DNA from: Collimonas sp. PA-H2
GTDB lineage: Bacteria; Pseudomonadota; Gammaproteobacteria; Burkholderiales; Burkholderiaceae_D
Reading direction: 5' to 3'
NCBI RefSeq assembly: GCF_002564105.1
Contig: NZ_PDBX01000001.1
Coordinates: 1,984,001-2,048,000, forward strand
DNA: 64,000 nucleotides
This document shows positions 58,158 to 63,997 of the stretch, one piece after another (position 1 is the first letter of the stretch; each line of letters starts with the position of its first letter). Made by a program: the position numbers and the translations under genes. A model generated the notes under the pieces. The model did not search any database. It was not told where the DNA came from and worked only from the letters and a program-made list of their open reading frames with translations.

Positions 58158-59423
58158 CTAGCAAGAATGCTGCCGTTTGCAGTCCGGTCGCAATTCGGCA
58201 ATCGCCTGCCTGAGGCTTGCGCTTTTGTCGTCCTTGGCAATCCAGCGCTCGATTTTTCCGATCATCCATTCCTCTCGTTCGGAAAAAATCTTTCCTTGAC
58301 TCGCATGCCGCTGCAGCCACTTCAGCATCAGAAAGCTCAAGGTCATCAGGACAAAACGGCGAACGCCCTCGACATCCGCGACCCCGCGGCGCAAGCCGAC
58401 CAGCAGCCACAGCGCCAGCAGCGGCATCAGGTAACGGTCAACGATACTGGCCAGCGCCGGCGGCAGACTGGCAAATATCCACGGCGTACCGCTGCGGTAA
58501 AACTCAGGCGCCACTGCATGCAGTGGCAAATCCGCTGCAAGATAGGAAGGAAATTCGCGCGGCTGACTGACATAGTTTCCAGCGCGATGCACTTCAGCCA
58601 TGGCCTCCAGCAACGCGTAGGCAGTGGCCGGCGGCAGCGTCTTTTTAACGATGATCGAGACCCGTGCGGCAAGCAGCTGCATATCCGCGGAGGGAATATT
58701 CTTGTCGCGGTCGTAGATGCCGGCAGGCAGCACGGCGTGCTGCAGGAACGGGATGTCCTTTACCATGGCGTCGATTTGCCCGACTTCGACCAGCTCCAGG
58801 TCTGGATTGGTCGCCAGCTCGATCACCTGCCTGTTGTCGGCGCCCAGCATGAAGATGCCGGCATCGGTTCTGCCCTCTTTCAATTGGCGGATGGCGTCGT
58901 CCAGTTCGCGATATTCGATGACGGTATTGGTCTTATCGATATTGCTGAGCTTGAATATTTTCGCCGCCGCCTGACTGGTCACGCTTCTTTCCGGCGGCAA
59001 CACTATCCTCAATCCCCTCAAGTCAGAGAAAGTGGCGATCTTTCTTTGCTTGCCGGAGACTCGGTGCGCAAACAGGAAAACCGGCTCCAGCTCGATGTCG
59101 CCGAGCGAGGCGATGTTGCGGAGCTTATCGACATGCAATTCCTGAGCGACAAAACCGACATCGATGCCGGAATCGCTGTCGTTGACCATGTCGGCAATGG
59201 TTTCGGTATATTTTTCCGACCGGATTTTCACCCGATAACCTCTTTGCTCAAGCAGTTTCCTGTACGCGATCGCATGCTGGTAATAGGTGCCGCTTGCGGG
59301 GCCGGCGGCTATCGTGATTTCCTTCGGCGGCATCGCCATCAGCAGCATGTGGGCGATCAGCATCAACGCCAGTCCATAGACCACCATGCGCGTCTGCCTG
59401 ATTCGTCGGGTTCTTGAAAACAT
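58158..59423 (-). CDS. TAXI family TRAP-type solute-binding protein with membrane anchors
   Basis: This 421-residue protein has an N-terminal membrane helix (RMVVYGLALMLIAHMLLMAM) and the TAXI binding domain (ITIAAGPASGTYYQHAIAYR; GIDVGFVAQELHVDKLRNIA; DLRGLRIVLPPERSVTSQAA; TDAGIFMLGADNRQVIELAT). Near the C-terminus there is another hydrophobic segment (YLMPLLALWLLVGLRRG). Classic TAXI proteins serve TRAP transporters, but no TRAP permease gene is here, so this may be a membrane-bound sensor. Confidence 0.9.
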   Translation of the reverse strand: MFSRTRRIRQTRMVVYGLALMLIAHMLLMAMPPKEITIAAGPASGTYYQHAIAYRKLLEQRGYRVKIRSEKYTETIADMVNDSDSGIDVGFVAQELHVDKLRNIASLGDIELEPVFLFAHRVSGKQRKIATFSDLRGLRIVLPPERSVTSQAAAKIFKLSNIDKTNTVIEYRELDDAIRQLKEGRTDAGIFMLGADNRQVIELATNPDLELVEVGQIDAMVKDIPFLQHAVLPAGIYDRDKNIPSADMQLLAARVSIIVKKTLPPATAYALLEAMAEVHRAGNYVSQPREFPSYLAADLPLHAVAPEFYRSGTPWIFASLPPALASIVDRYLMPLLALWLLVGLRRGVADVEGVRRFVLMTLSFLMLKWLQRHASQGKIFSEREEWMIGKIERWIAKDDKSASLRQAIAELRPDCKRQHSC

Positions 59424-59746: not shown

Positions 59747-60343
59747 ATGAAATCCACCGATGAAAAAGCATCTGCCGGCAACTTCCCGCGCGGGGATGAA
59801 GCAGACCGCTGCCGTGCGCACGTCGATTTGAAATCGTCATCTGATACACGGACTCGCGTGGCCGTAACGCACGTCATCTCTCCGGCCTGTCCGCTTTTTC
59901 ATTTCGATGTCAGCTTGAATGAAGAACACACCTGGCTGCAGGTCGCCTGCAACGGCCAACCTGTGGTCGATCTTGGCGAGCGCATCCATCACTACAGCTT
60001 GCTGACGCTCGCCAGGCATCGGCTGCACGATGCAAACAGAGGCTACGAAGCGGACAGCCAGGGCTGGATAGGCATAGAGCAGCTGTCGAAAATGCTGGGG
60101 CTGGATACCGGATATCTGAATATACAAATATTCAGGGCCCGCCAGCAGCTGAAAAAATTTCTGCCCGACGCAATCGGCAGCGGCGCTGTCATCGAACGAC
60201 GCCGCGGCGAGATCCGTTTCGGAGGGCATGCATTTCGCATCATGCGCGGGGCAAAGCTGGAGGGCGAATTCATGCCACAGTCCGAAGAACAAAAGATACT
60301 TTCGCAGTTGCCGCCATCCGCAATGAGTAGTCGCTCCATGTAA
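59747..60343 (+). CDS. Winged-helix regulator-like protein at the head of the DUF2589 operon
   Basis: This protein of about 198 residues has a C-terminal winged-helix-like domain (about 75-180): LGERIHHYSLLTLARHRLHD, then WIGIEQLSKMLGLDTGYLNI and FRARQQLKKFLPDAIGSGAV, with the wing IERRRGEIRFGGHAFRI. This resembles the DNA-binding end of response-regulator-like proteins without a receiver domain. The N-terminal part (SPACPLFHFDVSLNEEHTWL) is of unknown fold. GAGGAG six bases before the ATG at 59747 decides the start. It is followed on the same strand by six genes without assigned function, so it most likely controls them. Confidence 0.7.
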   Translation: MKSTDEKASAGNFPRGDEADRCRAHVDLKSSSDTRTRVAVTHVISPACPLFHFDVSLNEEHTWLQVACNGQPVVDLGERIHHYSLLTLARHRLHDANRGYEADSQGWIGIEQLSKMLGLDTGYLNIQIFRARQQLKKFLPDAIGSGAVIERRRGEIRFGGHAFRIMRGAKLEGEFMPQSEEQKILSQLPPSAMSSRSM

Positions 60344-60418
60344 TCGCCTGTAATCGCCTTGCTGCTTTGCCTGTCCTATCTTTCTCCTGCGTTCAAGACA
60401 AATACATCGGGGAAAGAG

Positions 60419-61036
60419 ATGCTGGCAAGGCTCAACTTCATCAATCGGACAGACAGCGGCCATCAGGCGAGCATCCTGGTTTTCCAGGACAATGCGAACG
60501 CCGATCTGCCGCCAGCGACGGTGGCATGGACGGTGATCCGGCATTGCGGCAAGGACTGCAGCCACCCGTTTCTCTATTCGAGCGATTTTGAAATTGCTCT
60601 CAGCGATGAATTTGGAAATTATTCGCCACGCCAGGCGGCGCCGTGCGGCAGCTGGTTCGCCGTCACTGCTTGCGCCGTGGGACGCCAATTATCGCGCCGC
60701 GGCGCCGCCGACAGGAACCGCCAGATCGTGCTGAGGAATGAACTAGCGCGCGGGGCAGTGAACGCCAACATCTATGCCGCCGGCAGGCTGCTCGCCTGCA
60801 GGAACGGCATCGCACCGGGGCAAAAAGCGCTGTTCGAATTCAAGCAGACGCTCTCCATCGGTATCGCAACGCAAGCCGAAGAAGGACAAATCATCGATGT
60901 CGCCGGCATCGCCGGCCCGTTGACTGAACTGTCGCTGTCTGGCGTCGCCAGCGCTGACATCGTCATGAGCGGCGGCGGTGCGGGAAATACGGCAAGGCCC
61001 TACGAATTCAATCTGGACAATTTGCAAAAGGCTTGA
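60419..61036 (+). CDS. DUF2589-operon protein of 205 residues, cysteine-rich paralogue
   Basis: This protein of 205 residues has no signal peptide and opens LNFINRTDSGHQASILVFQD. It is a clear paralogue of the next gene (same 205-residue length, shared N-FIN start, RNELARGAVNANIY and APGQKALFEFKQTLSIGIAT, and the ASADIVMSGGG ending). It differs by extra cysteines (RHCGKDCS, APCGSW, VTACAVG, LLACRNG) absent from its partner. The fold looks all-beta. I recognise no enzyme motif. GGGGAAAGAG lies just before the ATG at 60419. Function unknown. Confidence 0.75.
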   Translation: MLARLNFINRTDSGHQASILVFQDNANADLPPATVAWTVIRHCGKDCSHPFLYSSDFEIALSDEFGNYSPRQAAPCGSWFAVTACAVGRQLSRRGAADRNRQIVLRNELARGAVNANIYAAGRLLACRNGIAPGQKALFEFKQTLSIGIATQAEEGQIIDVAGIAGPLTELSLSGVASADIVMSGGGAGNTARPYEFNLDNLQKA

Positions 61037-61110
61037 TTGCAGGCGCAGTACCCGTAGCAAAACCAGGCGACGCATGGGGTGTCGTCTTTCTCAACTTTGG
61101 AGCGATAGCA

Positions 61111-61728
61111 ATGGATATCAAACTCAATTTCATCAACCAGTCCAACGATCTGAACAATTCTCAAATCGTGGTTTTCCAGAAAAACACCGCCTCGGATTTC
61201 GACGAACTGTCGGTCGCCTGGAAGATCATCAAAAATTGCGGACAAGGCGACAATCACCCGTTCACTTTCCCGATGACGATGGCAGTCGGCGCCAGCGACA
61301 GCTACGGCAACTACACGCCGCAACTGCCGGCGCAGAACAGCCAGCTGTTCCACGTCAGCCTGACAGGTTCGGGCGACACGCTGTCGCTGGCCGGCCCAGG
61401 CACCAGCTCCAAGGAAGTCCAGCTCAGGAACGATCTCGACAAAGGCGCAATCAACGCCAGCATCTATAAGGATGGCCGGGTGCTGGCGACCAAGACCTCA
61501 ATCGCGCCGGGACAGAAAGCGGTGTTTGAATTCAAGCCGACCCTGTGGATAGGCGCGGTATCGCAAGTAGTCGAAGGACAGGTGATGAACTCCGCCATCA
61601 TGTCCGACGTGAACACGGAAATCTCCCTGCTGGGCATCGCCAGCGCTGACATCATCATGACCGGCGGCGGTCCTGGCGTCGGCTCGACGGCGTTGAAATT
61701 CAGCCTCGAAAACATAGTGATGGCTTAA
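61111..61728 (+). CDS. DUF2589-operon protein of 205 residues, second paralogue
   Basis: This protein of 205 residues is a beta-rich, soluble, cytosolic-looking protein: LNFINQSNDLNNSQIVVFQK, then TASDFDELSVAWKIIKNCGQ, SDSYGNYTPQLPAQNSQLFH and SIAPGQKAVFEFKPTLWIGA, ending IASADIIMTGGGPGVGST. It keeps the conserved-looking sequence while the first copy has drifted, so it may be the functional archetype. GGAG lies before the ATG at 61111. A perfect 11-base hairpin follows and separates it from the DUF2589 genes. The function is unknown. Confidence 0.78.
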   Translation: MDIKLNFINQSNDLNNSQIVVFQKNTASDFDELSVAWKIIKNCGQGDNHPFTFPMTMAVGASDSYGNYTPQLPAQNSQLFHVSLTGSGDTLSLAGPGTSSKEVQLRNDLDKGAINASIYKDGRVLATKTSIAPGQKAVFEFKPTLWIGAVSQVVEGQVMNSAIMSDVNTEISLLGIASADIIMTGGGPGVGSTALKFSLENIVMA

Positions 61729-61738
61729 GCAGAAGATG

Positions 61739-61770
61739 CAGCATCCATCTGCCGGACCGGATGGATGCTG
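61739..61770 (+). terminator. Intra-operon hairpin
   Basis: CAGCATCCATC (61739-61749) and GATGGATGCTG (61760-61770) form a perfect 11-base stem with a ten-base loop. Only a poor T run follows, so it may be a partial terminator or an RNA-stability element setting a higher level for the two paralogues than for the downstream genes. Confidence 0.6.
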
Positions 61771-61808
61771 TTCATATCATTCCCGCACCACCTTGAAAGG
61801 TCTATTCC

Positions 61809-62333
61809 ATGGCAATCCTAGCCAGCCTCGAAGACATGATACTGGCGATAGCCGGTTCCATCATGAACGCCCAGCACATGGTGGAGAAAGCCCAAATGGC
61901 GAATATCGCTTCGTTCTTCGATGAGCAGCACCAGCCGACCGCGATCGACCTGCAGCTGCCGGCCATACACAGCACAACCAGCGAAGGCGATCTGTACCGC
62001 TATCGCTTGCCTTTGATCTCGCTGGTTCCGCATAGCTCATTGATCATCGGCGAGGCGGAAATCGACCTCGATGTCGAACTGGCTGCGTTTGAAAAGCAAG
62101 AACGCAGCGGACACAACGCTTCGTTCATGAGCCAGGCCGGGCTGGCGGCGCCGGCGGAAAAGAAGGCGGCCCTGATGGTGAACCCCGAGACCGGCGGCAT
62201 GGCCAAGCGCAGCGGCAACGCGGCTCACATCAAGCTCAAGCTGGTGGCCACTGAAAAATCCGAAGGCCTGGCCAGACTGGTCAACGATGTGGTTAAGGGT
62301 CAGGGCCACGCTGGCGCGATCTTGCCAAAGTAA
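61809..62333 (+). CDS. DUF2589 domain protein
   Basis: This 174-residue protein matches DUF2589. It has an N-terminal helix region (LASLEDMILAIAGSIMNAQH), then the DUF2589 core RLPLISLVPHSSLIIGEAEI-DLDVEL, and the family end EGLARLVNDVVKG. No signal peptide or membrane helix is seen, so it is probably cytosolic. AAAGG lies before the ATG. The same domain returns in the last gene of the operon. Confidence 0.85.
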   Translation: MAILASLEDMILAIAGSIMNAQHMVEKAQMANIASFFDEQHQPTAIDLQLPAIHSTTSEGDLYRYRLPLISLVPHSSLIIGEAEIDLDVELAAFEKQERSGHNASFMSQAGLAAPAEKKAALMVNPETGGMAKRSGNAAHIKLKLVATEKSEGLARLVNDVVKGQGHAGAILPK

Positions 62334-62364
62334 AGACCGCCTCTACCAAACCACGGAGATTGCC

Positions 62365-62631
62365 TTGAGCACAGAACGCTTCCAGCTTACCGAGATGCGC
62401 TATATCAAACGCATCGTAGTCGGCAACGACAATCCGCAAAACATCAAGACCGAAGCTGAAATCGAAGAGGCCATGGCGCTGGTCAACCGCTGTCTTGCCG
62501 GCAGCCCGCGTGGCTATATCCTGAATACCGAAAAGAGCTTCGGTCTATACAACATTGGCGAGCATCAGGTGGTGTTGCAGTATGCCGTCTATAACATCGG
62601 CTTTGCGCGCAAGCCGATGTACCTGGATTAG
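62365..62631 (+). CDS. Small conserved-looking protein of the DUF2589 operon
   Basis: This 88-residue protein starts at TTG because GGAG lies six bases upstream; the first ATG is ten codons later. It reads MRYIKRIVVGNDNPQNIKTE, then AMALVNRCLAGSPRGYILNT and EKSFGLYNIGEHQVVLQYAV. The aromatic/glycine-rich pattern suggests a compact beta protein. I recognise no named family. Its place between DUF2589 genes suggests that it is a structural or adaptor partner. Confidence 0.72.
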   Translation: MSTERFQLTEMRYIKRIVVGNDNPQNIKTEAEIEEAMALVNRCLAGSPRGYILNTEKSFGLYNIGEHQVVLQYAVYNIGFARKPMYLD

Positions 62632-62645
62632 CGGCCGAGGCCGGC

Positions 62646-63200
62646 ATGGCATCCGTCATTTCTTCTCTCGACATCTTTTGCGAAGCGCTGGCGGCGTCGT
62701 TCGACAACGCCAATCTGGCGCTGGCGGCGATGCCGCGATCGCAGTCGGACGTCATGGCTGAATTGCGCTACTCAGCGTTCGACGGCTCATCTCTTGTCAT
62801 CTCGCTGGCCGAACTCTATCCGCAGCGATGCCTCGCCTTGCACGCCTTGCAGTTTCATGTGCGCTGCTATCGCATCAGGCACACCCTCAATCCCTACGCA
62901 CCGGCACGCGACGCCATCGCCCTGCGGCCGCCGCCGTGGTGGCAAAGAATGCGCCAGCCCGCGCTGGCAATCAGGCTCGATATCCACATCATCGACGGCG
63001 AGCTATCCATCGCATTTCGCCGCGCGGCGCCGCACAGTCTGCGCCGGGCGAAATCGGATTGGATCTTTCTTCTCACGCCCGAACAGGAAAGAAAAATTGA
63101 CATGCTGCGTCCCGGCCGCAAGCACCACGGCTGCGGTCGCCTGGCGGCCGATGCCTGCCTGAAATGGCTGCGGCGCTTGACAGGAAATGTCATGCCTTAG
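62646..63200 (+). CDS. Possible divergent DUF2589-related protein
   Basis: This 184-residue protein has no known motif but follows the plan of the DUF2589 proteins: an N-terminal helix (SLDIFCEALAASFDNANLAL), a central LVISLAELYPQRCLALHALQ-FHVRC segment that lines up in pattern with LPLLSIVKVPSLSITRVDIT of the last gene, then a beta-strand stretch (RLDIHIIDGELSIAFRR) and a basic end. The relation is tentative. GAGG lies before the ATG. It is rich in Arg and Leu, unlike the other operon proteins. Confidence 0.65.
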   Translation: MASVISSLDIFCEALAASFDNANLALAAMPRSQSDVMAELRYSAFDGSSLVISLAELYPQRCLALHALQFHVRCYRIRHTLNPYAPARDAIALRPPPWWQRMRQPALAIRLDIHIIDGELSIAFRRAAPHSLRRAKSDWIFLLTPEQERKIDMLRPGRKHHGCGRLAADACLKWLRRLTGNVMP

Positions 63201-63228
63201 AGGGCCGGCGCCTCATAAGCTGTTAATC

Positions 63229-63281
63229 GACGGCTGGCCATTTCGGCCGCTTCAGTCGGCAGAACCGGCCGCACAGCCGTC
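63229..63281. other. Structured gap before the last DUF2589 gene
   Basis: GACGGCTG (63229-63236) and CAGCCGTC (63274-63281) pair around smaller GGCC palindromes. This RNA could fold in the 164-base gap. AGGAG is six bases before the ATG at 63365. It may set the expression of the last gene; no gene is seen in the gap. Confidence 0.4.
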
Positions 63282-63364
63282 CATGCTTTCACGCCACACC
63301 GGGCAGCGCTTTGTCTGGCGTGGATTTCCCGACCCTTCCGGGTCTTGTCACTCAGGAGAAAATG

Positions 63365-63997
63365 ATGTCCGAATTAATCGATATGGCTTCACAATTCAAA
63401 GGCTTGCCGATGGGCGACCTGATTGGCGGTCCGCTGACCGCGGCTTGCGATGCGCAGATCAGGCTCGCCAACGCCACCGCCGATTTCATCAAGTACGTCG
63501 GCTTCACGGCGCCGTCGAAAGACGATCCCAACGGGGTCGGCGCGACGCGCACCGCAAAGTTCTCATTTACGCGCCAGACCGTCGATCCTGACGATCCAAG
63601 CAAGACGGTCGACGAAGATGTCTCATTGAATGTGCCGCTGCTCTCCATCGTCAAGGTTCCCAGCCTGTCGATCACCCGGGTCGACATCACTTTCGATATG
63701 GAAGTGAAATCGTCGTTCGCCGTCAAGGAGTCGCAGGACGCATCGGCCAAATTATCGGCAGACATGAAATTCGGCTGGGGCTGTTTCAGCGCCACCGTGC
63801 ACATCGAAGGCTCGGTCGCCTCCCACAAGGAAAACACGCGCAGCTCGGATAACTCGGCCAAATACCACGTGCAGGTGCTGGCAGAGGATGGCGGCATGCC
63901 GGAAGGCCTGGCGCGCGTGATGGATATCCTGCAGACCGCTATCCAGCCGAAGGTCGGCGGCAGCGCCAAGCCAGCCGCCGCATCCACCCTGCAGTAA
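63365..63997 (+). CDS. DUF2589 domain protein (last gene in the window)
   Basis: This protein of 210 residues matches DUF2589 more typically than the first copy. An N-terminal helix (IRLANATADFIKYVGF) is followed by ATRTAKFSFTRQTVDPDDPS, the core LNVPLLSIVKVPSLSITRVD, then ITFDMEVKSS, and the ending YHVQVLAEDGGMPEGLARVM. No signal peptide or membrane helix is seen. The start at 63365 has AGGAG six bases upstream; an ATG directly before is also possible. It ends three bases before the window edge, so the operon may continue beyond it. Confidence 0.85.
   Translation: MSELIDMASQFKGLPMGDLIGGPLTAACDAQIRLANATADFIKYVGFTAPSKDDPNGVGATRTAKFSFTRQTVDPDDPSKTVDEDVSLNVPLLSIVKVPSLSITRVDITFDMEVKSSFAVKESQDASAKLSADMKFGWGCFSATVHIEGSVASHKENTRSSDNSAKYHVQVLAEDGGMPEGLARVMDILQTAIQPKVGGSAKPAAASTLQ

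Follow-up and report, generated by a model that had tools for sequence, protein, structure and literature searches.

The locus described here raises the question whether seven unexplained genes form a single operon, and what such an operon would do. The genes lie at positions 59747-63997 of a 64,000-nucleotide stretch (the window) of the 5.9 Mb genome of Collimonas sp. PA-H2, for which the best named protein matches come from Collimonas (94% identity), and two of them encode proteins of the DUF2589 family (PF11655), here called DUFa and DUFb. An initial annotation had described the run as an uncharacterised DUF2589 operon, in which repeated use of one fold hints at a self-assembling cytosolic structure or shell. 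The seven genes are instead two modules. One consists of a regulator-like gene and a tandem pair of 205-residue proteins (P205a and P205b). The other is a cassette of DUFa, a small protein S88, a fast-evolving protein X184 and DUFb, which continues past the window end with a gene for a GH19 endolysin-like enzyme. In cells and phages, murein hydrolysis is most often the companion of DUF2589. We favour, tentatively and at less than an even chance, the possibility that DUFa, S88, X184, DUFb and GH19 are one functional cassette, shared with phages and coupled to a lysin, which opens a breach in the envelope of its own cell or lets a cytosolic assembly out through it.

The two modules come apart within the genus. 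DUF2589 is present in five of the 15 genus genomes searched, the present one included. At the four other loci the order DUFa-S88-X184-DUFb-GH19 is kept in every case, together with the Trans_reg_C regulator RR218; in the present genome the GH19 gene starts about 110 bp beyond DUFb and RR218 follows about 240 bp further on. The same four loci share divergent neighbours, named by eye as TAXI-like, methyltransferase-like and solute-binding/permease-like. The regulator-P205-P205 block is found at none of the four, and P205 was not found in the three of these genomes that were in the sample searched for it (G005, G009 and G012, with G010 outside that sample). Among 195 genomes of the family, DUF2589 occurs in 11 and P205 in 11, and both occur only in the window's own genome, with 0.6 expected by chance. 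DUF2589 lies within the fetched stretch at 13 of 80 P205 loci (12 from Burkholderia, Paraburkholderia or Trinickia, one from Duganella) and somewhere in the genome in 15 of the 50 P205-bearing genomes searched, the 50 being part of the 80. The association of P205 with DUF2589 recurs without being constant or amounting to a single fixed operon, and the P205 block, a module in its own right, has joined the cassette on more than one occasion. With this block separable in four genus genomes and the DUF2589 half also present in phages, a single unit of seven genes is not supported. The seven open reading frames (ORFs), all on the + strand, and the tandem P205 pair are as first described, and the term DUF2589 operon remains apt for the cassette; the expectation that all seven genes stay together does not survive the comparison.

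DUFa and DUFb score 76.4 and 163.2 bits against the curated PF11655 cut-off of 23, and both are members, as first annotated. They alone among the seven window proteins exceed a Pfam cut-off. Identity to the four other genus loci is about 80% for DUFb, 71-73% for DUFa and 58-59% for GH19 (for S88 and X184, see Table 1). There are 771 homologues of S88 at E 0.001, and the protein adjoins DUF2589 also on plasmids from Vibrio and deltaproteobacteria, as well as on two viral contigs. The order DUFa-S88-X184-DUFb-GH19 is kept as well in the fetched loci L016, L145, L146, L147 and L156, where S88 was recognised by a separate comparison. In L230, L232-L236, L238, L239 and L154, DUFb is followed by conserved proteins of about 226 and 190 residues that belong to no recognised family, and a Streptomyces plasmid (L244) carries two short genes annotated as DUF2589.

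The reuse of one fold applies to DUFa and DUFb and, separately, to the P205 pair; profile comparisons of P205 with DUF2589, S88 with DUF2589 and S88 with X184 gave no match. X184, proposed as a possible DUF2589 relative, finds no support as one, with hhalign probabilities of 0.0-0.3% and no Pfam match at E 1. Hydropathy on an uncalibrated scale, computed for DUFa, DUFb, X184, S88 and P205b, reveals nothing that resembles a membrane-spanning segment, in agreement with the initial annotation for these five. Ribosome sites, described as good, are by eye clear for the regulator-like gene, P205a, P205b and DUFb and weaker for DUFa and X184. The literature searched gave no function for DUF2589, as had been stated; within that literature, PF11655 is mentioned nowhere and DUF2589 only in PMC3949148. 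DUF2589 is a family without an assigned function, and the present analysis describes its a/b pairing, its occurrence in phages and its coupling to lysins.

That the run holds no enzyme motif is correct inside the window but not immediately past it, where the GH19 gene matches PF00182 over the cut-off, across profile positions 76-155 of 232 only. Murein hydrolases recur at other DUF2589 loci. By eye, 45 of the fetched DUF2589 loci were selected, with near-duplicates left out (among them L142-L144, L146, L156, L160, L182 and most of the P205-linked loci), and removal of partial or doubtful ones (L149, L152, L180, L240-L243) gave a set of 38. Six of the 38 do not come from a bacterial chromosome of established origin: L199-L201 are plasmids, L202 is an unverified phage record, and L203 and L204 come from a viral collection. 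In 17 of the 38 selected loci DUF2589 has a murein hydrolase nearby, and these enzymes belong to eight Pfam families; the count is without a fully matched control since the more distant ORFs were not read by eye. The enzyme differs with the type of locus. It is GH19 in Collimonas-, Massilia- and Duganella-type loci, GH24 phage lysozyme in Burkholderia-type loci, L175 and L204, N-acetylmuramidase in a deltaproteobacterial plasmid and the unverified faecal phage record, and a solute-binding/transglycosylase fusion in two Vibrio plasmids. Other loci have Amidase_3, Peptidase_M15_4, CHAP or a Pesticin-like protein just under the cut-off; a targeted scan found these four and a second Muramidase. 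The hydrolase is separated from the nearest DUF2589 gene by up to 2.0 kb and in some loci overlaps it, by 7-16 bases in the case of GH24 in L181, L183 and L204.

ORFs of 125-560 residues near DUF2589 in the 38 loci were compared with ORFs 3.5-9 kb away; 150 were scanned on each side, out of 176 near and 218 far ones. Among the first 25 of 99 near families, Phage_lysozyme and Glyco_hydro_19 are commonest, with five members each, and SLT (two) and Muramidase (one) are also present; none of these four is among the first 25 of the 191 far families, the last of those 25 having two members. Ten of the locus hydrolases and two profiles (GH19 and GH24), used as queries, matched 16 of the 150 near ORFs, none of the 150 far ORFs and none of all 284 far ORFs; because the queries were drawn from the near side, the lack of far matches excludes only their recognisable relatives, and the check is a partial control. 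The comparison supports an enrichment of murein hydrolases beside DUF2589. The L199 muramidase and the L233 enzyme lie outside the near set; these two and the enzymes of L157, L176 and L234 were picked by eye and confirmed with Pfam.

An evident export signal is commonly absent from phage endolysins. Judged by a crude hydropathy rule, the GH19 enzyme of the cassette has no signal-peptide-like start, and among the 17 hydrolases only the two SLT proteins begin with a strongly hydrophobic stretch, the other 15 being without one (L142 standing in for L141). The L233 and L234 hydrolases become borderline when the first start codon is taken as their beginning.

The DUF2589 pair is also found on phage contigs. 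Viral contigs scanned with a broad alignment of DUF2589 yielded 139 relatives, of which 80 were kept and, with two S88 loci, 82 were analysed. An a-type gene precedes a b-type gene in 78 of the 82 loci, which is the order in the window. Where a locus has two DUF2589 genes, the one in front is the shorter in 78 of 80 cases, and the median bit scores (28 vs 4 for the first gene, 17 vs 225 for the second) support the same order. The phage nature was checked on two contigs, that of L266, with a terminase matching T4 Gp17 at E 3.6e-19, and that of L254, with RecT at E 5e-14. A recurring endolysin-like neighbour, c1, is present in 46 viral loci and lies within 3 kb of the pair in 33 of the 47 loci with enough flank; it is on the same strand as the pair in 24 of 46. 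The N-terminal peptidoglycan-binding domain of c1 in L254 shares 48% identity with the L202 domain, which Pfam confirms, and the best solved match of this part is an endolysin (E 7e-14). The C-terminal domain, with a Ser-Ala-Gly-Cys motif, presumably resembles L,D-transpeptidases. A small hydrophobic gene lies near the pair in 43 of 46 viral loci, a count made with no control set. A 194 kb viral contig, IMGVR_UViG_3300009509_000001 (L203, L325), carries DUFb-S88 and a second DUF2589 gene.

If the cassette breaches the envelope or releases an assembly, it may be a phage-shared lysis module retained by bacteria. DUFa and DUFb would form a cytosolic hetero-oligomer. This might provide or assist the route that takes the lysin past the inner membrane, or it might itself be the cargo, set free in some cells once the wall has been opened by the lysin. 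The more specific proposal that DUFa/DUFb are a new soluble holin-like membrane-breaching complex, common to phages and bacteria, that pairs with nearly any signal-less murein hydrolase and by which bacteria release cytosolic proteins in a controlled way with no classical holin involved, is the least probable of the ideas considered here.

Several observations weigh against the lysin-coupled cassette. No Pfam-supported murein hydrolase is present in 21 of the 38 loci; one of these, L235, has a relative of c1 (L235:5919-6515) about 2.3 kb from DUF2589, which lies outside the 17. Clustering at 80% identity reduces the 83 viral b-type sequences to only 11 groups, so that the viral counts overstate the number of independent cases; the cellular loci, too, are related to one another. 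In 22 of the 46 viral loci c1 and the pair lie on opposite strands: the pair is often near the lysis region in both phage groups but not always transcribed with it. In one phage group the pair follows recombination genes and runs toward the late genes (RecT confirmed in L254, elsewhere by cluster). DUF2589 genes number two or three in 29 of the 45 loci and are single in 16, many of them Bacteroidota-type, and the a/b pair is therefore not universal. No holin-like gene is seen in the Collimonas cassette, nor, on the uncalibrated scale, a membrane-spanning-like stretch in its four DUF2589, S88 and X184 products. Archaeoglobus, an archaeon, has no murein. Its DUF2589-related genes are up with lactate, according to PMC3949148.

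The opposite-strand endolysins speak for a rival explanation, in which DUF2589 would be a phage structural or host-takeover pair, with the bacterial copies being relics or defence uses and the lysin link reflecting a late-gene neighbourhood. This explanation fares best among the rivals and is still unlikely. The pair is on many phage contigs, beside small virion-like genes (c5 and c16, judged by eye) or recombination genes. However, lysins are among the first 25 families beside DUF2589 in the 38 loci and no head or tail family is, the cassette is well conserved within the genus, and the seven window proteins match no family of PADLOC-DB.

A lower probability is given to the idea of the initial annotation, that DUF2589 is a cytosolic scaffold or shell with a job of its own, such as storage or sequestration, to which the lysin is accessory. 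The multiple DUF2589 genes of most loci would suit a scaffold, and polyhydroxybutyrate (PHB) depolymerase-like genes (PF10503, just over the cut-off) and phasin-like genes (Phasin_2, under the cut-off) nearby point to granules. Murein hydrolases, however, recur across a wider variety of loci than the PHB genes do, DUF2589 occurs in viruses, and Pfam and NCBIfam scans of the window proteins found none of the known shell families (encapsulin, microcompartment, gas vesicle). The structure model of DUFb is too poor for use, a fold search included.

A bacteriolytic weapon, in which the hydrolase is a toxin domain aimed at other cells, swapped as in polymorphic toxins, and DUF2589, S88 and X184 package, deliver or neutralise it, is more doubtful still: unrelated murein-active families, one pesticin-like, are indeed swapped beside DUF2589, X184 evolves fast, and c14 (12 loci), with a start that looks secreted by eye, mostly follows the GH24 lysozyme in Burkholderia-type loci, but c14 is not seen in GH19 loci, the pair is on phage contigs too, and no secretion apparatus, lysin-DUF2589 fusion or constant immunity candidate was noticed, no systematic search having been made.

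The P205 block has a distribution of its own. The winged-helix identity proposed for the regulator-like gene is not borne out, as it has no Pfam match and is only weakly similar in profile comparison to the locus's Trans_reg_C protein (E 0.018, probability 2.6%). Counting the gene itself, its family comprises 12 ORFs, spread over 12 fetched loci, and the relative in L011 has an FHA domain at its other end (E 1.4e-14). P205b has 1179 homologues at E 0.001, with 57-77% identity across 80 loci (kept from 122), whose records are named as genera or groups of Pseudomonadota, Bacteroidota, Myxococcota, Acidobacteriota and KSB1. The AlphaFold model of P205 is confident (pLDDT 91) and almost entirely beta; Foldseek gave no match under E 0.001 and no informative relative. 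The usual neighbourhood comprises P205-P205, a protein of about 955 residues, a phage tail collar protein (PF07484) and nitrilase-like and glycosyltransferase-like proteins. Some loci add a kinase-like protein and an FHA regulator, the C-terminal part of which is related to the window's regulator-like gene; the nitrilase, glycosyltransferase and kinase are named by eye. An uncharacterised P205 operon is conserved across phyla (L004, L005, L008, L011, L014, L017, L034, L042, L054, L056, L070 and others). Bacteroidota-type homologues of c1 adjoin P205 in L049 (1516-2103) and L070 (9271-9840) and lie about 3 kb away in L048 (5330-5938). PHB depolymerase-like and phasin-like genes adjoin DUF2589, lysozyme or P205 in L021-L037, L052, L145, L146 and L156, which are Burkholderia- and Massilia-type loci. 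P205 may be a client or cargo.

Table 1. Genes of the two modules and their neighbours, in window positions; corrected starts are the likely ones, chosen by eye and from the starts of homologues.
Feature	Position	Strand	Remarks
Regulator-like gene	59747..60343	+	related, among others, to the C-terminal portion of an FHA-domain protein; within the separable P205 block
P205a, 205-residue paralogue	60419..61036	+	42% identity to P205b; start corrected (ATG)
P205b, 205-residue protein	61111..61728	+	very conserved multi-phylum family
DUFa, a-type DUF2589, 174 residues	61809..62333	+	PF11655 E 4e-21; opens the lysin-coupled cassette
S88, small conserved DUF2589 partner	62365..62631	+	79-80% identity at four other genus loci; start corrected (TTG)
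X184, fast-evolving cassette member	62646..63200	+	24-25% identity at four other genus loci
DUFb, b-type DUF2589, 210 residues	63365..63997	+	PF11655 E 7.5e-48; start corrected (ATG)
GH19 endolysin-like enzyme, 216 residues	L003:6110-6760 (would-be window 64109-64759)		past the window end; PF00182 E 7e-11
TAXI/solute-binding-like gene (named by eye)	58158..59423	-	divergent; synteny with the cassette; 42-43% identity in L141-L144

DUF2589 spans bacteria, phage contigs and, by PMC3949148, one archaeon, and its a/b pairing, together with its coupling to exchangeable murein hydrolases, gives a testable hypothesis of envelope breach and protein release, for which the phage copies are an independent system. 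Besides PF11655 itself, two known systems are closest to the cassette. For the downstream enzyme it is the GH19 chitinase/endolysin family, over the cut-off of PF00182 with part of the profile covered. For the cassette as a whole it is the type 10 secretion/lysis cassettes, such as that of Yersinia entomophaga, to which it is likened, rather than assigned, because no holin was found. The Collimonas cassette differs in having no identified holin or spanin and in a lysin family that varies by locus. In both, a phage-type endolysin is linked to proteins without signal peptides. Both also have a regulator at hand: RR218, of the Trans_reg_C type, lies near the Collimonas cassette, and a PhoB-like regulator controls the Yersinia entomophaga lysis cassette, according to PMC10101115.

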